In this document: positions 2,934-54,812 of the stretch, in pieces
How the letters are laid out: every line of letters begins with the position of its first letter
How positions within the stretch are numbered: position 1 is the stretch's first letter
Assembly (NCBI RefSeq): GCF_004212635.1
Contig: NZ_PSRT01000005.1
Location: 1-64,000 of the forward strand
DNA from: Bradyrhizobium genosp. SA-3
Lineage (GTDB): Bacteria > Pseudomonadota > Alphaproteobacteria > Rhizobiales > Xanthobacteraceae
Direction: 5' to 3'
DNA: 64,000 nt
Made by a program: the position numbers and the translations under genes
The notes under the pieces: generated by a model
The model's input: the letters and a program-made list of their open reading frames with translations, nothing else
Told to the model about the DNA's origin: nothing
The model's database searches: none

Positions 2934-3797
2934 ATGCCGACCATGCATCCGAAATCCAGTTTTCTCGTCGGCCTGATCGGCAGCGGCATCGCGGCGTCGC
3001 GCACGCCGCCGATGCACGAAGCCGCCGCTGATGCAGCCGGCATCCGCTATCTCTACAAGAAGATCGATCTGGCCGAGTTGAAACTTGGTGCCGAAGCGCT
3101 GCCGGAATTGCTCACGGCAGCAAAGCGGATGGGCTTTGACGGGCTGAATGTGACCCATCCCTGCAAGCAGGCGATCCTTCCGCTGTTGGACGAACTTTCG
3201 CCTGACGCGCAGGCGCTTGGTGCCGTGAACACCGTGGTCGTCAGGAATGGTCGAATGACCGGCCACAACACCGACTGGTTCGGTTTCGCCGAGAACTTTC
3301 GCCGCAACATGCAAGGTGCATCACTCGGTCGCGTCGTCCAATTCGGCGCGGGCGGCGCAGGCGCGGCGGTCGCTTTCGCGCTCATGAAGCTCGGCGTGCA
3401 GGAACTGACCATCATAGACGTCAACTTGGTAAAGGCTCAGAGTTTGGTGGACGGTTTGTCCCCCCGATTTGTAGAAGGGCGCTTGAGAGCCGGCCAGGAT
3501 GTCGCAGCGGCCGTGGCTGCCGCAGACGGAATTGTCAACGCGACGCCGATCGGCATGGACAAGTATCCAGGCACGCCGCTGCCGACGGCCCTGCTGCGTC
3601 CCGATCTGTGGGTCGCCGAGATCGTCTACTTCCCGATGGAAACCGCGCTGCTGCGCGCGGCGCGTGCCCTCGGCTGCCGCACCGTCGATGGCGGTGGCAT
3701 GGCGATCTTCCAGGGCACTGAGGCATTTCGCCTGTTCACGGGCACCTCACCTGATCCAGACGTCTTCTTCGCGACATTTGCATCCCTGGGAGGGTGA
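2934..3797 (+). CDS. Quinate/shikimate dehydrogenase family protein, NAD-type (AroE-like 2)
   Basis: 287 residues. It has the catalytic Lys in GLNVTHPCK and the catalytic Asp in HNTDWFGF, and a GAGGAGAAV nucleotide loop. The strand after the loop ends IIDVNLVKA: an acidic residue at this position favours NAD over NADP, as in catabolic quinate/shikimate dehydrogenases. The first gene of the pair carries the NADP-type NRTxxK instead. The start is the ATG at 2934, with another ATG nine bases later that is equally possible. Inference: this is the oxidising, catabolic enzyme of the operon. Confidence 0.87.
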   Translation: MPTMHPKSSFLVGLIGSGIAASRTPPMHEAAADAAGIRYLYKKIDLAELKLGAEALPELLTAAKRMGFDGLNVTHPCKQAILPLLDELSPDAQALGAVNTVVVRNGRMTGHNTDWFGFAENFRRNMQGASLGRVVQFGAGGAGAAVAFALMKLGVQELTIIDVNLVKAQSLVDGLSPRFVEGRLRAGQDVAAAVAAADGIVNATPIGMDKYPGTPLPTALLRPDLWVAEIVYFPMETALLRAARALGCRTVDGGGMAIFQGTEAFRLFTGTSPDPDVFFATFASLGG

Positions 3798-3848
3798 CAC
3801 CCGGCCGATGGGCGAGCGGCACGCACAACGCCCGAGAGGAAACGCAAG

Positions 3849-4517
3849 ATGGGCTACACGCTCGATTTCTCGGTGGTTTGGCATGCAATGCCCGCGCTGC
3901 TGTGGGGGTGCGTTGGTACCTTGGGCTTGGCGCTTGCCGGAATGACGCTCGCAATGATGATCGGTGTCGCGGGCGTCGCGGCACGCGATTCGAGGGCGGC
4001 GTGGTTGCGTGCTCTCGTGATCGGCTTCGTCGAGACTGTGCGTAATACACCTTTCCTGGTGCAGATCTTTTTTCTGTTCTTCGCCCTGCCGCTCGTCGGA
4101 TTGAAGCTCAATCCGACAGCCACCGCCATTATCGCGCTCGGTGTCAATGGCGGCGCTTACGCCATCGAGATCATCCGCGGTGGCGTGCAGTCTATTCATA
4201 ACGGACAGGTAGAAGCCGGCTACGCGCTCGGACTGCACAAAGGGCAGGTATTCCGGTTCATCGTGCTCAAGCCAGCGCTTCGCGCGATCTATCCCTCGCT
4301 CACGGGTCAGTTCATCATGCTGACGCTGACCTCGTCGATCTGCTCGGCCGTATCGGCCTACGAATTGACGTCGGTTGCGCAGCGCATCGAAAGCGACACA
4401 TTCCGCAGCTTCGAGGTCTACTTCTTCGTCACTTTCCTCTACCTCGCGATCTCCTGGCTCTTGATGCTGGGCTTCGCGGTCATCTCTCACCGCTTATTCT
4501 CATATCCGACACGCTGA
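3849..4517 (+). CDS. Amino-acid-type ABC transporter permease 1
   Basis: 222 residues, inner-membrane permease of the polar amino acid (HisM/GlnP) family. It has several hydrophobic segments, the family motif ETVRNTPFLVQIFFLFFALP and the cytoplasmic EAA-type loop around GQVEAGYALGLHKGQVFRF. The SD-like GAGAGGAAA precedes the ATG. It is paired with a second permease starting 10 bases after its stop, then a binding protein and an ATPase, so the whole importer is present. Given the dehydrogenases and dehydroquinase around it, the substrate may be a hydroaromatic acid and not an amino acid; this is inference. Confidence 0.9.
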   Translation: MGYTLDFSVVWHAMPALLWGCVGTLGLALAGMTLAMMIGVAGVAARDSRAAWLRALVIGFVETVRNTPFLVQIFFLFFALPLVGLKLNPTATAIIALGVNGGAYAIEIIRGGVQSIHNGQVEAGYALGLHKGQVFRFIVLKPALRAIYPSLTGQFIMLTLTSSICSAVSAYELTSVAQRIESDTFRSFEVYFFVTFLYLAISWLLMLGFAVISHRLFSYPTR

Positions 4518-4527
4518 GGGGGAGATC

Positions 4528-5184
4528 ATGGCACCGCATTTTGGCCTCCCTGAGTTCGGTTTCCTGTTGCGTGGGTTGCAATGGACGATGCTGCTTACGC
4601 TGGTCGCGTTTGCGGGCGGCTGCACGGCGGGGCTGGCTGTCGCATTGCTGCGCACCTGTGGTCACAAGGGCGTGGAACGGATCACCCGCATTTACATCGG
4701 GATATTCCAAGGCACTCCGTTGCTGCTGCAGCTTTTCGTCGTGTACTACGGATTGGCGCTAACCGGGCTGAAGCTCGACGCCTTCGTCGCGGTGGCGATC
4801 GGTTTCACCGTGAATGCATCCGCCTTCCTTGGTGAAATTTGGCGCGGAGCGATACAGGCGGTGCCGCGCGGCCAGACCGAGGCGGCGATGGCGCTTGGAC
4901 TGCACTATTCGTCCCGCATGCGCGACATCGTGCTGCCGCAGGCGATCCGCATCTCGCTGCCGGCGACCATCGGCTATCTCGTACAGCTCATCAAGGGCAC
5001 TTCGCTCGCTGCCATCGTCGGCTTCATCGAACTCGCCCGCGCCGGTCAAATCGTATCGAACCAGACCTTTCAGCCGTTGCTCGTCTTCGGCGTGGTCGGC
5101 GCGATGTACTTCATCCTCTGCTGGCCACTGTCGTGGTGGGGCAGCCGGATGGAGGCCAGGCTCGCCCTGGCCAATCAAAGGTAG
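4528..5184 (+). CDS. Amino-acid-type ABC transporter permease 2
   Basis: 218 residues, second inner-membrane permease of the importer. The motif RIYIGIFQGTPLLLQLFVVY is the conserved N-terminal permease signature, and the EAA loop reads GQTEAAMALGLHYSSRMRD. GGGGGAG lies just upstream of the ATG. It forms a heterodimer with the preceding permease, as is usual for this family. Confidence 0.9.
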   Translation: MAPHFGLPEFGFLLRGLQWTMLLTLVAFAGGCTAGLAVALLRTCGHKGVERITRIYIGIFQGTPLLLQLFVVYYGLALTGLKLDAFVAVAIGFTVNASAFLGEIWRGAIQAVPRGQTEAAMALGLHYSSRMRDIVLPQAIRISLPATIGYLVQLIKGTSLAAIVGFIELARAGQIVSNQTFQPLLVFGVVGAMYFILCWPLSWWGSRMEARLALANQR

Positions 5185-6886: not shown

Positions 6887-7336
6887 ATGAATCGTCTTGT
6901 CTACGTCCTCAACGGGCCAAATCTCAATTTGCTCGGCAAGCGCCAGCCCCACATCTACGGTCACGAGACGCTTGCGGACGTGGAGCGGGATTGCCGGGCG
7001 CTGGCCGGGGAGCTCGCAATGGAGATGCGCTTTCACCAGTCGAACAGGGAATACGAGCTGATCGACTGGATCCACGAGGCGCGCGAGACGGCTGCCGGTA
7101 TCGTGATGAATCCCGCGGCTTTCACCCACACGTCGGTCGCCATCCTGGATGCCTTGAACACGTTCGATGGGACAGTGATCGAGGTGCATATTTCCAACGT
7201 GCACAAGCGCGAGGAATTCCGCCACCACTCGTTTGTCTCCAAACGAGCTGATGGGGTCATCGCGGGCTTCGGCACGCAGGGTTATCTGCTCGGCCTGCGT
7301 CGCGTGGCCAAGCTGCTTGACGAGAAGAATGGATAG
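6887..7336 (+). CDS. aroQ: Type II 3-dehydroquinate dehydratase
   Basis: 149 residues, exact size for the dodecameric type II enzyme. It has the N-terminal [17 protein letters not shown] (with the catalytic Tyr in IYG and Arg in KRQ), [23 protein letters not shown] and [16 protein letters not shown]. It interconverts 3-dehydroquinate and 3-dehydroshikimate. With the NAD-type quinate/shikimate dehydrogenase it would give a route from quinate to dehydroshikimate. Start at ATG 6887 after ACGGAG; the gene follows the ABC ATPase by 13 bases. Confidence 0.93.
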
Positions 7337-7342
7337 CATCGT

Positions 7343-8377
7343 ATGAGTGCACCTGTCCGCCTGTCGGTGATGGGAGCGGGTCTCATCGGCAAGCGACACA
7401 TCGAACACATTCTCGCGCGGCCGGAGGCGATACTGTCGTCGATCGTCGATCCGATGCCGGCGGCCCGAGAGTTGGCGGTTTCGCTGAACGTGGGCTGGTT
7501 TCCGTCCTTTCAAGACATGCTATCCGAAAATCGGCCGGACGGGGTGGTTGTCGCCACCCCTAACCAGGTGCATGTGGCCAACGGCATGGATTGCATCGCT
7601 GCTGGCATTCCAGCGCTCATCGAGAAGCCGTTAGCGGATGATGTCGCCGCTGCACAGGCCCTGGTCGAAGCCTCCGAGCGGGCGGGCGTCCCGCTGCTCA
7701 CCGGCCATCATCGCCGCCACAACCCGATGGTCCAGCGCGCCAAGGCGGAGATCGACAGCGGCCGGCTCGGCCCGATCGTGTCGGTGCATGGCATGTTTTG
7801 GCTGATCAAGCCGGGCGATTATTTCGATGTGGCCTGGCGTCGCGAAAAAGGGGCGGGGCCTGTTTTCTTGAATCTCATCCACGATGTCGACCTGCTGCGG
7901 TACCTGTGTGGGGATATCGTGGCGGTACAGGCTGCCCAATCCAATCGACTGCGTGGAAACGCGGTTGAAGAGACAGCGGTGATCATCCTGCACTTCGCTT
8001 CCGGCGCGCTGGGAACGGTCAATGTCTCCGACACCATCCAGTCGCCTTGGAGCTGGGAATTCACCGCTGGTGAGAACCCGGCCTACAGTCATACGCAGGA
8101 GACGTGTTACCAGATCGGCGGCACGAGGGCATCGCTGGCTCTTCCGCAACTCGATCTATGGCATCACCCAAGCGAGGCCAGCTGGTGGGCGCCGATTGAG
8201 CGCGAGCGGCTGAGTTACGAGAAAGAAGACCCGCTCGGCCTGCAGATCACAAATTTCTGCGGGGTGATCCGCGGTACAGCCGCGCCTGTCGTGAGTGGGC
8301 GCGAGGGGTTGAAGACCCTCAGAGTGATCGAGGCGATCAAACGCGCAGCGGAAACCGGAGATTTGGTGTCGGTTTGA
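7343..8377 (+). CDS. Gfo/Idh/MocA family NAD(P)-dependent oxidoreductase
   Basis: 344 residues. The N-terminal Rossmann fold shows VMGAGLIGKRH and VVVATPNQVH. The conserved EKP motif is in ALIEKPLADD, and the catalytic His-type motif is in LNLIHDVDLLRYLCG. The family oxidises hydroxyl groups of sugars and polyols (inositol is the classic case). It is the last recognisable gene of the operon, six bases after aroQ. Its substrate is probably the hydroxylated ring compound handled by the operon; that is inference. Confidence 0.9.
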   Translation: MSAPVRLSVMGAGLIGKRHIEHILARPEAILSSIVDPMPAARELAVSLNVGWFPSFQDMLSENRPDGVVVATPNQVHVANGMDCIAAGIPALIEKPLADDVAAAQALVEASERAGVPLLTGHHRRHNPMVQRAKAEIDSGRLGPIVSVHGMFWLIKPGDYFDVAWRREKGAGPVFLNLIHDVDLLRYLCGDIVAVQAAQSNRLRGNAVEETAVIILHFASGALGTVNVSDTIQSPWSWEFTAGENPAYSHTQETCYQIGGTRASLALPQLDLWHHPSEASWWAPIERERLSYEKEDPLGLQITNFCGVIRGTAAPVVSGREGLKTLRVIEAIKRAAETGDLVSV

Positions 8378-47261: not shown

Positions 47262-48605
47262 TCAAGCCGTGAGAGCGAATGAATCATCTCGGATGATCCG
47301 TTGCTCAAGCCAAGTGTTTCCATTGAAGTGCTTGTACTGTTCTGCACGCAGCTTGTCGGCCAGACGACCCGGCGGCAGATCAACATCCGCATATGTCAGG
47401 ACTGCATCCTTTTTGACTGCGTGCCGCAACTTGCAGCCCTCTACGAGACCTTCGGGAAGGTATTGCATTTGGCTCATTTCCTCGGAGTTCACGGCTTCGC
47501 CATAGGTCATGTACATCCCATAGTCATCGAGGACCTCGCCCGCCGCCAAATCACGCTTGGCGACGGCACAGACCTCGACGACCGGACCGGCGATGGGAGG
47601 GGCGACCAAATCTTTGAAAAGAAACGCACGAGCAATCGAGTTCGGCACTTCGAAATGAACGAGGTGATATGGGGTGAAGAACGAGTACAAGGGGCCTTCA
47701 CCCATTTTGTACAAGCTCAAATACTTCTTTTGTTTTGGATCGGTGTGCTCGGCTAGCACGTAGACCTTGGTCAGCGGTGTGCCGACGAGATAGTCGATGA
47801 TTCCGCCCAGGGCGCGGACCTCGTCTATGTCGTAGAGTGTGCCTATCTTCGTGACGTCGCCGCGGTATTCCAGCCCGCGCGACATGCCGCGCGATCTTAC
47901 CTTGAAGCCGGTAGCATTGGCGACGATCGTTTGCTCGAAACTGATCTTGGATCCGTCAGCAAAGCTGGTGACCATGGCTGGGTTCTGTCCCCATTGCTCG
48001 GCAAATCCCTTCTGCGTGGTGGGGGTACGATACGGGTCCTGAAGTCCCTTGATGTTGCCGACAACGCGTGGGATCAAGCCGAGTCCCTTTACCCATCGAA
48101 CCAGGTTCATTTGCACTCCCGGTTCGTCGCCATCGCATGCGGATAGGGAGCCGCCGTACTTCTTTGCATAGACCTGCAAGATCGGCCCGATAGTCGCGTC
48201 AATCTCCGCGTTCATGAGCACCACGGTTTTTTGATGCTTGAAGGCTTCCAGCGCGACGTGGGCGCCGAATTCAACCGATCCGGTTACGTCGACGATCACG
48301 TCGACCAGGTCCGATCTGGCGAGGAGGAACGCGTCCTCGGTGACCGCCGGAACGCCAGCGGCAATGGCTCTGTCTAGCTGTCCTTGGTTGTCCGCGTAAA
48401 CCACGTCGGTTAGGCCGGAATAGTTGAATACGTCACGGCCACGCTGTGGCTTTCGGCTGTATATGGCAACCACGCGCATTCCAGGAACACTGTTGTTTAT
48501 CTGATTGGTAATCCCCTGAACCATGAAACCTGCGCCAAGCAGGCCGACGCGAATTGGCTTTCCGGCCGCATGACGGGCGTTTAGGGCGTGGTCGATGAGT
48601 ATCAT
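47262..48605 (-). CDS. SAF-domain NAD(P)-binding oxidoreductase
   Basis: 447 residues from ATG 48605 (a TTG at 48620 is possible). N-terminal Rossmann fold VGLLGAGFMVQGITNQ; IVDVTGSVEFGAHVA, SACDGDEPGVQMNLVRW; C-terminal SAF domain VCAVAKRDLAAGEVLDDYG. It resembles homoserine-dehydrogenase-like proteins found with sugar nucleotide genes. The gene shares an operon with the second RmlC-like gene and diverges from the cytidylyltransferase gene. Reaction unknown; oxidation or reduction of a sugar intermediate is inferred. Confidence 0.82.
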   Translation of the reverse strand: MILIDHALNARHAAGKPIRVGLLGAGFMVQGITNQINNSVPGMRVVAIYSRKPQRGRDVFNYSGLTDVVYADNQGQLDRAIAAGVPAVTEDAFLLARSDLVDVIVDVTGSVEFGAHVALEAFKHQKTVVLMNAEIDATIGPILQVYAKKYGGSLSACDGDEPGVQMNLVRWVKGLGLIPRVVGNIKGLQDPYRTPTTQKGFAEQWGQNPAMVTSFADGSKISFEQTIVANATGFKVRSRGMSRGLEYRGDVTKIGTLYDIDEVRALGGIIDYLVGTPLTKVYVLAEHTDPKQKKYLSLYKMGEGPLYSFFTPYHLVHFEVPNSIARAFLFKDLVAPPIAGPVVEVCAVAKRDLAAGEVLDDYGMYMTYGEAVNSEEMSQMQYLPEGLVEGCKLRHAVKKDAVLTYADVDLPPGRLADKLRAEQYKHFNGNTWLEQRIIRDDSFALTA

Positions 48606-48664
48606 CGTAGATTCTTTCAACTAGAAGGGATCGGTAAGGGCCTGCGTGCGACGTGCTTTCGGCG

Positions 48665-49243
48665 TCAACCTTCGACGCCGGCGAGTTCCATCCGCCCTTT
48701 CAGTTCGGATTCGACCTCGTTGAGTAAGCGAAATTTCTGATCCTTCTCCGAGATCACGGAAACCGGAAGCGGCCAGGTCAGTCCAAGCTTAGGATCATTG
48801 TACATCAGCCCGCTCTCCGCCTCGGGCGTATAGAATTCTCCCACCTGGTAGCTGGTATCGGTGTTGTCGACGAGAGTCTGATATCCGTGAGCAAAACGTT
48901 CCGGCACATAGAGCGCTCGCTGGTTGGTTTCGTTCAGTTCGACGGCGACATGCTGCAGGTAGGTCGGGCTTCCGGGACGCAGGTCGACTATGATGTCCAG
49001 GATGGCGCCACGCGTACAACGAACCAGTTTCGTCTCCGATGCCGGCGGAAACTGAAAGTGCATGCCGCGCAGGGTTCCCCGCCGGACATTTGACGCGATA
49101 TTCGCCTGCGCGATGACCGGATTGAGCCCGAGGGTCCTAAACTCTCTCTGGCAAAAGGCTCTCGCAAAAAAGCCGCGCGAATCCTCGCGGCGTTCAATAT
49201 CGATAATGTAGGCTCCTTTAAGCTTGGTTTCGGTTATAATCAC
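48665..49243 (-). CDS. dTDP-4-dehydrorhamnose 3,5-epimerase family protein (second copy)
   Basis: 192 residues. REDSRGFFARAFCQREF, RGTLRGMHFQFPPASE (catalytic His), DLRPGSPTYL, and YQVGEFYTPEAE. It differs from rfbC at 38458 in length and has YQVGEFY where RfbC has YKVDQVY, so a different nucleotide sugar, probably a CDP-sugar, is likely. Starts divergent from the cytidylyltransferase gene with an AT-rich gap between them. Confidence 0.88.
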   Translation of the reverse strand: MIITETKLKGAYIIDIERREDSRGFFARAFCQREFRTLGLNPVIAQANIASNVRRGTLRGMHFQFPPASETKLVRCTRGAILDIIVDLRPGSPTYLQHVAVELNETNQRALYVPERFAHGYQTLVDNTDTSYQVGEFYTPEAESGLMYNDPKLGLTWPLPVSVISEKDQKFRLLNEVESELKGRMELAGVEG

Positions 49244-49481: not shown

Positions 49482-50279
49482 ATGAAAGTTGTGCTGTTCT
49501 GTGGGGGGCTCGGGACCCGCATCCGAGAATATTCTGAAAGCATTCCGAAGCCCATGGTGCCCGTCGGCCAACACCCGATGCTGTGGCATGTTATGCAATA
49601 CTATAGTCAGTATGGTCATCGCGATTTTATACTGTGCCTGGGCTACAAGGCCAATGTGATCAAGGAGTACTTCCTCAACTCGGATCGCTGGGCTCACAGC
49701 GATTGCGTTGTTTCCAACTTCGGCAGGAAGGTTGAGGTCATCGGCGAGCAGCCGCCGGATTGGCAGGTTTCGCTAGTTGACACCGGCATTTGGCGAAACA
49801 TCGGTCAGCGCTTGATGGCGGTGCGCTCCCTCGTTGAGAACGAGGACATCTTTCTCGCAAACTACAGTGATGGCCTGACCGACGCGCCGTTGCCCGAAAT
49901 AGTAGAGCGGTTCAAGAAGAGTGGAATGGTCGGATGTTTCGTTGCCGTGCATCCTCCGTTCAATTTTCACCTTGCTGAATTCAATGGTGGAGACACCGTC
50001 AAGCGTTTCCGCTCCAGTCAGCAGTCCGAGATCTGGATCAACGGGGGCTACTTCATCTTCCGGAAGGAGATCTTCGACTACATCCGTGAGGGCGAGGAGC
50101 TTGTGCTCGAACCATTCAATCGCCTGATCGAGGCCGGAAAGCTCATGGCCTACAAGTACGAAGGTTTCTGGCGCGCGATGGATACGCTGCGGGACCGGCA
50201 GGTTCTTGAGGAGATGATTGAGCGGGGCGAAATGCCCTGGAAGATCATCTCGGAAGTGCGGGCGCAGGCAGCTTCATGA
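49482..50279 (+). CDS. rfbF: Glucose-1-phosphate cytidylyltransferase (RfbF-like)
   Basis: 265 residues from ATG 49482 (an upstream ATG at 49455 is less likely because the family begins MKVVLFCGGLGTRIRE). LGYKANVIKEYFLNSD, NYSDGLTD and EIWINGGYFIF are as in RfbF. Makes CDP-glucose from glucose 1-phosphate and CTP. The next enzyme of the CDP-3,6-dideoxyhexose route, CDP-glucose 4,6-dehydratase, is not obvious in the window, unless one of the SDR proteins takes this role. Confidence 0.85.
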   Translation: MKVVLFCGGLGTRIREYSESIPKPMVPVGQHPMLWHVMQYYSQYGHRDFILCLGYKANVIKEYFLNSDRWAHSDCVVSNFGRKVEVIGEQPPDWQVSLVDTGIWRNIGQRLMAVRSLVENEDIFLANYSDGLTDAPLPEIVERFKKSGMVGCFVAVHPPFNFHLAEFNGGDTVKRFRSSQQSEIWINGGYFIFRKEIFDYIREGEELVLEPFNRLIEAGKLMAYKYEGFWRAMDTLRDRQVLEEMIERGEMPWKIISEVRAQAAS

Positions 50280-50932
50280 AGGCATTTCAACTTGCCGCGC
50301 CCGGAGGGCGTCTCTCGATCCTCTGTCTCGGTGCGCACTCGGATGACATCGAAATAGGTGCGGGTGCGACGATCCTCGGCTTGTTGAACCGCGGAGCGCA
50401 TGTCGATGTGCACTGGTGCGTGCTGAGTGCGCCCGGTGGAAGGGAGCGGGAGGCGCGCGAATCTGCGAAGAGCTTCCTGGTTCAAGCAGCCAGTGCGGTG
50501 ATTGAAACGATGCCGTTTCGCGACGGATTCTTTCCGGAGCAGGGCGAGCGGATCAAGTCCTGGTTCGAGGAACTGAAGAGTCGGGCTAATCCCGATCTGA
50601 TCCTGACGCATCGGAGGGACGACCTTCACCAAGATCATCGTGAAGTGTGTCGACTGACATGGAATACGTTTCGCGATCACAGCATCCTCGAATACGAGAT
50701 CCCGAAATGGGATGGAGATCTGGGCAATCCCAATGTCTATGTGCCGGTCTCGGCGAGGACGCTGCAGCGCAAGATCGATCTACTGAAGGCGCATTTCGCA
50801 AGCCAACGATCCAAGCAATGGTTCGACGAGGAGACGTTCCGCGGTTTGGCGCGTCTCCGGGGCATGGAGTGCCGCGCTCCGGAACGCTACGCGGAGGCAT
50901 TCGTCGCCCGCAAGGTGGCCCTCGAACTGTAG
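50276..50932 (+). CDS. PIG-L family deacetylase
   Basis: 218 residues; overlaps the previous gene by four bases (ATGA). Metal site in LGAHSDDIEIGAGATI (the AHxDD motif) and HRRDDLHQDHREV (HxxH). LmbE/PIG-L enzymes remove N-acetyl groups from sugars. With the aminotransferase it suggests a free or differently acylated amino sugar. Coupled to the cytidylyltransferase. Confidence 0.9.
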   Translation: MKAFQLAAPGGRLSILCLGAHSDDIEIGAGATILGLLNRGAHVDVHWCVLSAPGGREREARESAKSFLVQAASAVIETMPFRDGFFPEQGERIKSWFEELKSRANPDLILTHRRDDLHQDHREVCRLTWNTFRDHSILEYEIPKWDGDLGNPNVYVPVSARTLQRKIDLLKAHFASQRSKQWFDEETFRGLARLRGMECRAPERYAEAFVARKVALEL

Positions 50933-51076: not shown

Positions 51077-52543
51077 GTGAACGACTTGAAAGAGCGGGCG
51101 GTTCGTGGCGGCTTGGCGCGGCTCTGTGGTCAGGCTGCAAGCTTCCCTCTGCGCCTTGCTTCGATAGCAATTTTGGCGCGCCTGCTCAGCCCCAATGATT
51201 TTGGTCTGCTCGCCATGGTTACAGCTGTCACGGGCGTGTACGGATTTTTTACCACCGCGGGCCTTTCGTCAGCCACGGTTCAGCAAGACACCATCACCGA
51301 CGCTCAAATCTCGACATTGTTCTGGATCAACATAGCCGTCGGAGCGACATTGTTCCTTTTGTGCTTGGCAACAGCACCCATGCTCGTTGCATTTTATCAC
51401 GAGCCTCGCCTTTTTTGGGTGACGATCGTGACAGGAGCGGGATTTCTATTCAACGCGGCCGGCGTGCAGCACTATGCGCTTCTTCAGCGCCAGCTACGAT
51501 ACGTCACGCTAACAGTTATTGAAACGCTCTCACAAGTGTCGGCGATCGCCGTTGGAATCGCCATGGCGATTGCCGGCTTCGGTTATTGGTCGCTCGTCGC
51601 TATGGCACTCGTTTCGCCTGTGATGAATACATCGTGTCTGTGGTTGACGACCGCATGGATCCCGGAACGGCCGGGCATCAGCGCTGGTACGGGCAATATG
51701 CTGCGTTTCGGCGGGACCATAACTTTGAACGGTCTGGTCGTATATATTGCCTACAATTTCGAGAAAGTTCTTCTCGGGCGTTTCTGGGGCACCGATGCTC
51801 TCGGGCTGTATGGGAGGGCATACACCCTCGTTACCATCCCCACCGACAATCTCAATGCGGCGGTCGGTGCTGTCGTGTTCTCAGCGCTATCGCGCCTTCA
51901 ACAGGATCCCGCGCGTCTGAAGAAATACTTTCTCAAGGCCTATTCTTTGTACGCCTCCTTGACGATTCCCATCACCATCTTTTGTGCGCTATTCAGCGAA
52001 GACATTGTTCGAGTGTTTCTCGGACCGAAGTGGGGTGAAGCAGCCGTCATATTTCGACTGCTAAGCCCAACTGTCCTCATATTTGGGATGATAAATCCGC
52101 TTGGGTGGCTTCTGTTCTCAATTGGACTGCAGCGGCGAAGCTTGGCGATCGCACTCGTTCTCGCTCCGATCGTCATTTCTGCGTACTTCATTGGATTGCC
52201 GTACGGTCCCGGCGGAGTGGCGTTCGCTTATTCGGCCGCGATGACGCTGTGGCTTATTCCGCACATCGTGTGGTGCCTTCATGGCACGATGATATCTCCG
52301 TGGGATCTTTTCATGTCGGTCGGACGTCCGCTTCTCTCGGGCGCTGCGGCAGGGGCGGCCGCGTGGGTTTGTCAATTGTACCTTGCGGGGGAGGAACTTC
52401 CCTTCCTGAGGCTCCTATTGGGCGGTTGTATTATGGCCGGTACTTATTACTCAGTGCTCCTGATCATCATGGGGCAGAGAGCACTATACTTTGATTTATT
52501 CGCCGCCTTGAGAAAACCGGCCTCAATCGAAGGTAGGTCGTAG
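51077..52543 (+). CDS. Wzx-type polysaccharide flippase
   Basis: 488 residues, GTG start, about 12-14 TM segments. Family features: LARLLSPNDFGLLAMVTAVT and GFFTTAGLSSATVQQ, typical of the oligosaccharide flippase (PST) family. Flips lipid-linked repeat units across the inner membrane. The neighbour downstream is the Cys-rich two-domain protein, 75 bases later. Confidence 0.9.
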   Translation: MNDLKERAVRGGLARLCGQAASFPLRLASIAILARLLSPNDFGLLAMVTAVTGVYGFFTTAGLSSATVQQDTITDAQISTLFWINIAVGATLFLLCLATAPMLVAFYHEPRLFWVTIVTGAGFLFNAAGVQHYALLQRQLRYVTLTVIETLSQVSAIAVGIAMAIAGFGYWSLVAMALVSPVMNTSCLWLTTAWIPERPGISAGTGNMLRFGGTITLNGLVVYIAYNFEKVLLGRFWGTDALGLYGRAYTLVTIPTDNLNAAVGAVVFSALSRLQQDPARLKKYFLKAYSLYASLTIPITIFCALFSEDIVRVFLGPKWGEAAVIFRLLSPTVLIFGMINPLGWLLFSIGLQRRSLAIALVLAPIVISAYFIGLPYGPGGVAFAYSAAMTLWLIPHIVWCLHGTMISPWDLFMSVGRPLLSGAAAGAAAWVCQLYLAGEELPFLRLLLGGCIMAGTYYSVLLIIMGQRALYFDLFAALRKPASIEGRS

Positions 52544-52618: not shown

Positions 52619-53797
52619 ATGACGAGTTTGAGCGCGGGCGATTGGGTAGAAGTTCGCAGCAAGGAAGAAATACTGCGGACTTTGGACAAAAATGGCCGGC
52701 TTGATGAGATGCCGTTTATGCCGCAAATGTTTGAGTATTGTGGTCGGCGCTTCAAAGTCTATAAGCGCGCGCACAAAACGTGCGACACAGTCAACCCAAT
52801 CGCTGGGCGGCGACTTCCGAACTCGGTTCATCTCGATACTCGATGTGACGGTAAGGCCTATGGGGGCTGCCAGGCGGCGTGCCTCTTGTTTTGGAAGGAG
52901 GCGTGGTTGAAGCCGGTCGACGAATCGGCGAGCCCAGTGACCACTTCGGACCACATCGAACCTCCTACATTGCAAACACATACTGGGGGAGCCGGTTGTT
53001 CCGTGCGAGATGTATGGAACGGAACGCGCGCCGCAGATATGGAAGGGGAGCCAAGATACACTTGCCAGGCGACGCAATTGCCCCTCTTCACGCGGCCGCT
53101 CGCATGGTGGGACGCCCGCCAGTATGTCGAGGACTACACGTCCGGCAACACTTCATTAGGGCGCATCACGCGCGGATTCATCTATCTCTTCGTCTGGCAC
53201 ATTCTATTAGCCAAGCGAGGCACGGGGACATCTAACATGGCCAAGAGAGGGATATTGGGCCGGCCAGCCCGACTGCTTTACGACTGGTTCCAGGGTCTTT
53301 GGGGTGGTGTCCCCTTCCCCCGGCGGCAAGGGACTCTCCCTGCCGGCCAAATCGGTCCGCTCTGCGACCTTAACCTGCAGCCCGGCGAGATAGTTAGAAT
53401 GAAATCGTATGAAGAAATACGCGCGACGTTGGTGAGTCATTCAAATACCAATCGCGGACTATCATTCGATGCCGAGCTCGTACCGTTTTGCGGAGGAACT
53501 TACCGTGTAAAGGCTCGCGTGACGACGTTCATAGACGAGAAAACTGGACTTATGAAGTCTCTGAAGACACCTGCCTTGATCTTAGAGAACGTCTGGTGCC
53601 AATCACGTTACAGCAACTGTCGAATGTTTTGTCCGAGAAGCATTTATGCTTGGTGTCGTGAGATTTGGCTCGAGCGTATTCCGAACAGCAACAGTGACCT
53701 CCATAAAACGGTTGCCGGCGTGGGCGTCGCCACGCTTGAGCACATTGCTGACGCGGAGACGCGGACAGTGCGCGAGGGCGAATCCTATGTTCGATAG
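52619..53797 (+). CDS. Unknown protein with two tandem Cys-rich domains
   Basis: 392 residues; ATG 52619 after GGGGG. Two halves match each other. First: GDWVEVRSKEEILRTL, F-x-x-x-C41-G, C76-x7-C84-x3-C88 then WKEAWL. Second: GEIVRMKSYEEIRATL, C291-G, C327-x6-C334-x3-C338 then WCREIWLE. The spacing from the first Cys to the next is 34 and 35 residues. A basic, less conserved linker (about 100-250) joins them, with one hydrophobic stretch (GFIYLFVWHILLA). Such Cys sets could bind zinc or an Fe-S cluster. I do not recognise a family. It overlaps the next GT2 gene by 11 bases and so is part of the EPS operon. Confidence 0.85.
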   Translation: MTSLSAGDWVEVRSKEEILRTLDKNGRLDEMPFMPQMFEYCGRRFKVYKRAHKTCDTVNPIAGRRLPNSVHLDTRCDGKAYGGCQAACLLFWKEAWLKPVDESASPVTTSDHIEPPTLQTHTGGAGCSVRDVWNGTRAADMEGEPRYTCQATQLPLFTRPLAWWDARQYVEDYTSGNTSLGRITRGFIYLFVWHILLAKRGTGTSNMAKRGILGRPARLLYDWFQGLWGGVPFPRRQGTLPAGQIGPLCDLNLQPGEIVRMKSYEEIRATLVSHSNTNRGLSFDAELVPFCGGTYRVKARVTTFIDEKTGLMKSLKTPALILENVWCQSRYSNCRMFCPRSIYAWCREIWLERIPNSNSDLHKTVAGVGVATLEHIADAETRTVREGESYVR

Positions 53798-54812
53798 CAC
53801 TGGCCTGAGTAGGCCGTTCATAACGATTGCGATCCCAACCTACAATCGAGCGATGCTGCTCAAGGAGTGTTTGCGATCCGCCCTGGCGCAGACTTATCCG
53901 CATTTTGAGGTGCTAGTTCTGGACAACGCGTCGACAGATGACACGTCTAAAGTGCTTAGAGGTATTCAGGACAAAAAGCTTCGCGTCGTAACTCAGGAAA
54001 AGAACGTTGGTCTAATTCCGAACTGGAATTCGTGCCTGGCCGAGGCCCGCGGCGACTATGTCGTATTTGTTTCGGACGATGATCAAATTGCACCACATTT
54101 TCTACAGCGATGTGTTGCCCTCATCAATCTGGAGGCAGATCTCCCGATCGTCGTCGCGTTGAGCGACATCTTCATGTCTCAGTTGCACCGCAATGTTGCG
54201 GCGATTCCAAACTCGAAACTGCGAACGGGAATCTGGCCCGGGAAGCATATCCTCGTCGAGTTCTTTAAGCGGCGGATACACACCAACATATGCACAATCT
54301 TGCTTGCCACTCGAGAATTTCGGGCGCGGGGCGGATTTTCCAGCGAGTTTGCTTGCGCAACGGACATGGCTGCTTCGCTTCCCCTTCTGCTGTCGGACAG
54401 AGCCGGTTTTGTCAATGAAACATGCGGATTCCATAGCGTGCACGACACAAGCGCGACTTCAGGTTTGGACCTCGACATACGGCTTGCCGACGACCAAAAG
54501 GTCGTCGATCTGATCGCTAGGACGGTCGAGTGCTCGAAGTTCAATCCGGAGGAACGAAAACTGCTTGTCTTGGAAGGCAGGCGCTGGGCAGCCCGCAACG
54601 TCATATTCGCAATTGCAGAAATTCGGCGGCGGGGCGCCCCCTTGGCGACCGCCATGCACGAGATCTGGCAATGGCATGTACACCTTTATTGTCTTGGCTT
54701 CGGAGATATCTTGCGCCTGGCTAGACCGCTCGCCATTATCGCTCTACCGCGCCAGGTTACGGCATCTGTAGCGCGCGTGAAGAACGCCATGATCGGAAGG
54801 CGGCTCGGTTGA
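53787..54812 (+). CDS. Glycosyltransferase family 2
   Basis: 341 residues from ATG 53787; a 47-codon upstream extension overlaps the previous gene and is rejected. ITIAIPTYNRAMLLKECLRS, VLDNASTDDTS and the DxD-type motif FVSDDDQIAP mark GT-A. Adds one sugar of the repeat unit at the cytoplasmic face. Confidence 0.9.
   Translation: MFDSTGLSRPFITIAIPTYNRAMLLKECLRSALAQTYPHFEVLVLDNASTDDTSKVLRGIQDKKLRVVTQEKNVGLIPNWNSCLAEARGDYVVFVSDDDQIAPHFLQRCVALINLEADLPIVVALSDIFMSQLHRNVAAIPNSKLRTGIWPGKHILVEFFKRRIHTNICTILLATREFRARGGFSSEFACATDMAASLPLLLSDRAGFVNETCGFHSVHDTSATSGLDLDIRLADDQKVVDLIARTVECSKFNPEERKLLVLEGRRWAARNVIFAIAEIRRRGAPLATAMHEIWQWHVHLYCLGFGDILRLARPLAIIALPRQVTASVARVKNAMIGRRLG

Follow-up and report, generated by a model that had tools for sequence, protein, structure and literature searches.

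What does a cysteine-rich protein of no recognised family contribute to a polysaccharide locus? The question is posed by one gene, here called X, in a window of 64,000 nucleotides from Bradyrhizobium genosp. SA-3 (the whole stretch of DNA analysed: contig NZ_PSRT01000005.1, positions 1 to 64,000). X is read on the forward strand from an ATG start to a TAG stop (52619..53797), in the frame proposed by the first-pass annotation; it encodes 392 aa and has homologues across phyla. Upstream lies the gene of a Wzx-type MOP flippase (51077..52543, +; Polysacc_synt_3, E = 1.2e-77) and downstream that of a family 2 glycosyltransferase (53787..54812, +; Glycos_transf_2, E = 3.9e-31), whose start at 53787 produces the 11-base overlap with X that had been noted. 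The wider surroundings are likewise those of a polysaccharide locus, as first described. On the forward strand we found a deacetylase of the PIG-L family, part of the sugar cassette (50276..50932; PF02585), and a sugar-1-phosphate nucleotidyltransferase resembling glucose-1-phosphate cytidylyltransferase (49488..50279; PF00483), which scores 220 bits against TIGR02623 (E = 3.2e-65; cut-off 300). On the reverse strand are a gene like the dTDP-4-dehydrorhamnose 3,5-epimerases RfbC/RmlC (48665..49243; PF00908) and a DRL/DLO-type oxidoreductase in place of a C-methyltransferase (47262..48620; DRL_cat, E = 1.5e-45).

That no family could be recognised for X was borne out: Pfam, NCBIfam and PDB sequence searches gave no match past cut-off, the curated cut-offs being used for the first two. 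Below them in Pfam, DUF6504 was matched by 6 of 82 X members (best E = 0.012) and six models by one member each. In the PHROGs scan of the same 82 members nothing rose above cut-off, with two models at E ≤ 0.01 in 2 and 1 members, and the PADLOC scan returned no match. Two apparent leads were discarded. The RiPP precursor SbtA (TIGR04081) fell short of its curated cut-off of 30.5 bits, with 13.3 and 15.1 bits across 15 residues, and the best PDB matches (E = 0.3 with the single sequence, E = 0.12 with the profile) were not taken as kinship; the profile match pairs designed double-psi barrels with the G-[DE]-x-V-x-V start of X. No relatives of X were found in viral contigs and phage records, and a literature search by six sequence motifs and by the kind of protein in EPS loci yielded no paper on the family. 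Judged by its sequences, X is an undescribed, unnamed family present in several bacterial phyla.

The first-pass annotation had described X as two tandem related domains, and comparison of its halves bears this out. X has exactly two copies of the start motif G-[DE]-x-V-x3-S-x-E-E-I-x2-T-L, one at residue 7 and one at residue 256. Aligned as single sequences, the halves scored 73, where shuffled sequences averaged 25.2 (sd 4.3; Z = 11.2). Aligned as profiles, they matched with a probability of 99.7% (E = 3.7e-26) for 82 members and, in hhalign, of 99.9% (E = 2.6e-33) for 116 members, while the N half against the linker, as negative control, gave 0.4–0.5%. The proposed common end W-(K/C)-(E/R)-x-(A/I)-W-L does not hold for both halves: it fits the C half only (WCREIWL), the N half reads FWKEAWL, and the end common to both is [FW]-[WC]-[KR]-E-[AI]-W-L. 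These alignments show that the two halves are homologous. The N-terminal domain (residues 3–103; 52625..52927, +) and the C-terminal domain (residues 248–355; 53360..53683, +) are separated by a linker (residues 104–247; 52928..53359, +) with a Y-x-C-Q-x-T motif and two helices (180–197 and 211–227), and the protein ends in a predicted disordered tail (residues 366–392; 53714..53794, +; pLDDT below 50).

The AlphaFold model of the whole protein had a pLDDT of 87.2 and a pTM of 0.85, with block pLDDT values of 92–98 over residues 1–100. VIA-align 2 ranked Mind bomb repeats first to third with Z of 7.2–7.5 (rmsd 2.0–2.9 over 68–74 residues), below a Z of 8, the level under which it cautions that an arrangement may be a common one; ribosomal proteins and then nitrile hydratase (Z 5.5–5.8) followed. 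Since these rows cover mostly residues 220–360, the C-terminal fold is assigned from hhalign, AlphaFold and VIA-align 2, and that of the N-terminal domain rests on its homology to the C-terminal one in hhalign. We conclude that both halves carry a predicted SH3-like barrel, the fold class that the model displays. The SH3 repeat of Mind bomb, an animal ubiquitin ligase, is of this class and may share the fold of the X barrels (SH3_15, PF18346; PDB 4xi6, 4xi7, 4tse). SH3_15 alone among Pfam models matches over six members, namely 12 of the 82 with E ≤ 0.1. Sub-threshold matches lie at the beginning of the N domain in L055 and L015 and of the C domain in L046; the best (L055, E = 2e-4) has 22.0 bits against the curated cut-off of 24, which none of the 82 members reaches, and no match was reported for the window protein. 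X differs from Mind bomb in its invariant Cys set, its helical linker and its place among bacterial polysaccharide genes. The viral structure library gave no match to the X model at E ≤ 0.001, and Foldseek with the linker-only model gave three rows, all at E ≥ 6, and no usable fold match.

With the whole model, the best Foldseek rows were nitrile hydratase beta chains (E = 5.8e-4), whose C-terminal domain (PF02211) has the SH3-like barrel class in common with the predicted X model. X could on this ground be a metallochaperone or subunit of the nitrile-hydratase-beta kind, but we regard this as highly improbable. The whole-model TM of these rows is 0.13–0.18, and hhalign of the X domains with 18 NHase_beta_C sequences, left from 20 after the empty L207 and L216, gave probabilities of 3.1% and 4.5% over 11–18 columns, which largely refutes a sequence kinship at profile level and provides a second negative control for the match between the X halves. 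None of the 82 X members scanned has an NHase_beta_C match in Pfam, and the window's own genome carries a separate NHase_beta_C match elsewhere.

The Cys pattern C-x34/35-C-x6/7-C-x3-C, which had been taken as a duplicated, evenly spaced set suggesting metal or Fe-S binding, is indeed present twice in X, from C41 and C291; at least two matches were seen in 1 of 20,000 shuffles. We counted each Cys in 116 non-identical members, obtained from 190 ORF hits after removal of four partial sequences and of exact duplicates. C76, C84 and C88 (C-x7-C-x3-C; 52844..52882, +) and C149 in the linker (53063..53065, +) are Cys in every one of the 116. C55 (52781..52783, +) is nearly invariant (115), as are C327 and C338 of the C-terminal domain (53597..53632, +; 115 each), and C334 between these two is variable (50). 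Further counts were 110 for C41, 102 for C291 and 91 for C127. Conservation and pattern part company here: the pattern includes the variable C334 and leaves out C55 and C149.

Equivalence of the Cys in the two halves held in part. The profile alignment pairs C41 with C291, C76 with C327 and C84 with C338, but sets C88 opposite a residue other than Cys and places C334 inside an insertion of the C half; the single-sequence alignment instead pairs C84 with C334 and C88 with C338. Because of the conservation over 116 members, and because C88 lacks a counterpart in the C half of the profile alignment, a single tetra-Cys site made by the N domain and the linker (C76, C84, C88 and C149) is most likely, and not two equal sites. 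The four invariant candidate ligands of an Fe-S or zinc protein are at hand, and binding of a metal or an Fe-S cluster by this candidate site is possible. In the mechanism that we propose, these Cys would most likely bind zinc or an Fe-S cluster in a structural role, and the site would lock the linker onto the first barrel. The linker modelled alone was poor (pLDDT 74, pTM 0.47) but confident in the whole protein (block pLDDT 94–97 for residues 131–190), which agrees with a linker kept in place by the remainder of X. The one sequence without C327 and C338, that of L009, also misses C55; this single case hints that the three may belong together.

The many Cys of the family (about 11.6 on average per domain-trimmed protein) could alternatively form disulphides in a protein acting outside the cytoplasm, on the outward side of the membrane. 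The six sequences lacking C41 all lack C127 too, and co-variation of C41 with C127 and of C291 with C331 gave low p values, uncorrected for kinship. Also, the open frames of L009 and L185 carry hydrophobic N-terminal extensions. Such a location is nevertheless very unlikely in our judgement: 19 members keep C41 without C127, and window X has no signal-like N terminus (the other members were domain-trimmed). No strongly hydrophobic stretch occurs at that N terminus, and the highest 19-residue hydropathy, 1.28, is found in the linker. There, helix 180–197 has a mean hydropathy of 0.77 and helix 211–227 a moment of 0.51, values that are no more than suggestive of a membrane-surface helix and that we left out of the reading.

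By the counts in the genomes searched, the distribution of X is sporadic. It was present in 3 of 398 Pseudomonadota genomes and, within the window's genus, in 37 of 265, the window's own being included in both. The phylum of G490, a Nitrospira record, gave 11 of 198 (G490 and G491, both known beforehand, are among them), that of G492, an Acidobacteria record, 11 of 247 with G492 included, and that of G494 (Limisphaerales, Verrucomicrobiota record) 1 of 194, which is G494 itself. Six plasmid records carry X as well (four of Mesorhizobium, one of Bosea, one of Nonomuraea). On a quick LG+G4 tree of X, which came with warnings of long branches that meet, the phylum labels required 13 changes (minimum 6; shuffled mean 27.1; 25 rows unlabelled) and are thus clustered but mixed. 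Weak linker-only matches in G024 (E = 4e-4) and in the window's own genome (L002, E = 0.1) lie inside DUF899 proteins and were taken as chance, so that 7 and not 8 of 100 relatives carry X; a third weak match, L003, had E = 0.37.

Some frames depart from the usual layout. The upstream in-frame extensions of L005, L028, L032, L049, L068 and L088 contained no Pfam domain at E 0.01, and we claim no gene fusion for them. X-like frames in L009/L179 (G033) and L185 carry hydrophobic segments at the N terminus, as would suit a membrane anchor. The polysaccharide locus L042 holds two distinct copies of X (3793–4962, + and 7204–8328, −) around a gene for a WecG-type glycosyltransferase.

Genome contigs gave 293 confirmed X stretches, and the loci studied for their neighbours are the best 80 of these 293; being those most similar to window X, they bias the association figures to close relatives. 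Neighbours were counted with our own seed-built profiles, not those of Pfam, on ORFs of at least 90 aa, and a divergent flippase would be missed; the ORF cluster 'cl6', mostly antisense and with a representative lacking a Pfam match, was excluded. X is associated with polysaccharide genes: at least one of those searched was present in 76 of the best 80 loci, and in 44 of 48 when one locus was kept per 70%-identity cluster. Among the best 80 we counted GT2a in 55, PIG-L in 51, the flippase in 50, the nucleotidyltransferase in 47, RfbC in 43, the C-methyltransferase in 27, DUF4910 in 23 and the DRL oxidoreductase in 22. Where either side of X offered at least 7 kb (57 loci), the flippase was present in 37 and PIG-L in 40. 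In 30 of the best 80 loci no such flippase was seen in the examined flanks.

Among the genes adjoining X the flippase is the commonest, in 30 of the 50 loci having both among the best 80, lying upstream in 14, downstream in 12 and on opposite strands in 4. GT2a adjoins X in 27 of 55 such loci. For comparison, flippase and GT2a adjoin each other in 13 of 36, and flippase and PIG-L in 9 of 41. After dereplication to 48 loci the corresponding values were 17/29 for X and flippase, 9/23 for flippase and GT2a and 2/21 for flippase and PIG-L; X and GT2a, at 18/34, were nearly equal to X and flippase.

X is often accompanied by a branched-sugar cassette. In 42 of the 44 X loci having both (best 80 of 293), the cytidylyltransferase-like gene adjoins that of the PIG-L deacetylase, a pairing that suggests a constant deacetylation step close to the nucleotide sugar. 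C-methyltransferase/DUF4910 and the DRL/DLO oxidoreductase interchange next to an unchanged set of nucleotidyltransferase, PIG-L and RfbC genes (L016–L095 and the window). Among X loci with a nucleotidyltransferase or PIG-L gene the two are mutually exclusive in all but one case: 25 had the former alone, 21 the latter alone, 1 both and 7 neither (best 80 of 293; Fisher p = 4e-8, uncorrected for kinship), and dereplicated loci gave 13, 13, 1 and 5 (p = 3e-4). On the X tree this switch took 12 changes over 51 labelled rows, against a shuffled mean of 16.2, a number as low being reached in 3 of 200 shuffles; X and cassette type are thus loosely linked. Since X is kept while the cassette swaps C-methyltransferase for DRL, it is probably not specific to one sugar product. 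The DLO oxidoreductases may make branched-chain NDP-sugars, a role put forward because a branched sugar would result from C-methylation as well as from a DXR-like rearrangement. PMC3847144 describes DXR-II-like oxidoreductases as previously uncharacterised. In PMC4000134, a role in making a modified cell-surface carbohydrate is proposed for DUF4910 proteins (CA_C2195) from gene neighbourhood. DUF4910, present in 23 of the best 80 of 293 X loci, resembles X in being uncharacterised and in its cell-surface carbohydrate setting; its fold, metallopeptidase-like with a winged helix according to the same text, is unrelated.

Cassette and X can also be compared among 100 relatives. Close pairs of PIG-L and nucleotidyltransferase (at least 60% identity) are found in 7 of them, and 5 of these 7 carry X; all five relatives with an EPS-type X (best E of 5e-99 or lower) belong to the seven. 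In the other two, G015 and G090, the rest of the cassette is kept without X, and no flippase of this kind occurs in the 20 kb examined. G089 (L198) has X, yet no such flippase in 20 kb around it. From these gene contents X is an accessory and not the pathway itself.

Taken as a whole, we favour a cytosolic, mostly non-catalytic adaptor or chaperone for the Wzx-type flippase and the glycosyltransferase, metal-bearing tetra-Cys site included, and put its probability at roughly 0.37. It is preferred because of the make-up of the conserved columns, the lack of a signal-like N terminus, the SH3-like fold and the adjacency to the flippase. X would be a soluble cytosolic protein of two homologous SH3-like barrels and a helical linker, which would help to finish a lipid-linked repeat unit with an unusual sugar before hand-over to the flippase. 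We infer from the combined observations the cytosolic location, metal binding, the adaptor role and the flippase as partner. That the two genomes with the cassette and no X (G015, G090) are also without such a flippase in the 20 kb examined speaks for the adaptor, as does the retention of X when the cassette switches chemistry. Counting against it are the 30 of the best 80 loci, and G089, with no such flippase in the flanks examined, the fold scores below their thresholds (VIA-align 2 Z under 8, SH3_15 under the Pfam cut-off) and the loose link between X and cassette type.

Columns kept in 115–116 of the 116 members are, besides the Cys, mainly Gly, Pro, Trp, Met and hydrophobic; the polar ones are D23, R75, R347 and E348. 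No His stands in any column kept in at least 95% of these members, and the barrels have no evident catalytic constellation. Against the adaptor, the invariant Cys could be catalytic, and K53 and Q150 are each kept in 112 of 116. X might accordingly act enzymatically in the polysaccharide pathway, perhaps as a transferase or as a modifier of a lipid-linked sugar, working through an invariant Cys or a Cys-held metal. The strict invariance of C76, C84, C88 and C149 across long divergence, the retention of D23, R75, R347 and E348, with K53 nearly so, and the embedding of X among sugar enzymes would agree with this, as would the fact that cassette neighbours such as DUF4910 are themselves uncharacterised. 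We consider it unlikely, however. SH3-like barrels are seldom enzymes, the conserved columns offer no His, X is retained through the change of sugar chemistry, and it is missing in 2 of the 7 genomes with the close PIG-L and nucleotidyltransferase pair, which keep the rest of the cassette.

Divergent members of the family qualify the picture. The first-pass annotation had asked whether homologues always sit in EPS loci; this holds for 76 of the best 80 of 293, but several divergent members have non-EPS surroundings. In a divergent Nitrospirota group (L174–L177) X still lies beside nucleotidyltransferase, PIG-L, C-methyltransferase and DUF4910 genes. In L178 and L180 (window's genus) and in L185–L190 (phylum of G492) the searched genes are absent nearby or there is one at a distance, an SDR in L180 and a sugar transferase in L187. 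In the sister loci L186 (7563–9400, −) and L190 (7518–9272, −), a gene with ScdA_N and Hemerythrin domains adjoins X on the same strand; we take this make-up to be that of the RIC/YtfE-type Fe-S repair proteins. In L192 (406–2406, −) a frame of 222 residues, with the C-terminal X domain only, is found beside a radical SAM protein.

A link of the X family to iron-sulphur chemistry is thus possible through the neighbours in L186 and L190. Since divergent X occur outside EPS loci, two of them by a gene of the Fe-S repair type, X may at root have a broader activity, or one linked to redox. It could then be an Fe-S or redox-sensitive Cys sensor of redox, iron or oxygen that regulates the synthesis or export of polysaccharide or, in divergent members, another process. 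The four invariant Cys (C-x7-C-x3-C and C149), the overall Cys richness, the adjoining RIC-type gene and the radical SAM neighbour of the single-domain relative all point this way. On the other side, X contains no classical Fe-S motif, and no Fe-S family matched in Pfam (82 members) or NCBIfam (window protein); no DNA-binding or signalling domain was found in X; and among the 22 divergent loci searched (L174–L195) the ScdA_N and Hemerythrin gene was seen in none beyond L186 and L190. On balance a sensor seems rather unlikely, although the RIC-type neighbour of two divergent members raises the odds of a redox or Fe-S role somewhat.

Returning to the cytosolic adaptor, its boldest form would be a new family of twin SH3 proteins, locked by a metal or Fe-S cluster, that dock onto Wzx-type flippases and couple the last glycosyl transfer, of an unusual branched sugar, to flipping. 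We hold this form distinctly unlikely as it stands. By what means flippases single out completed lipid-linked repeat units is a standing question, and to our knowledge no gatekeeper of such kind has been described in Wzx/Wzy export. If it were true, X would keep the gate of this route from the cytosolic side, perhaps in a redox-sensitive way. Short of that, X is a testable candidate for a helper: it recurs by Wzx-type flippases, survives a change of sugar chemistry and bears an invariant four-Cys site. The family would also give a name to proteins that the Mesorhizobium and Bosea plasmid records annotate as hypothetical only.
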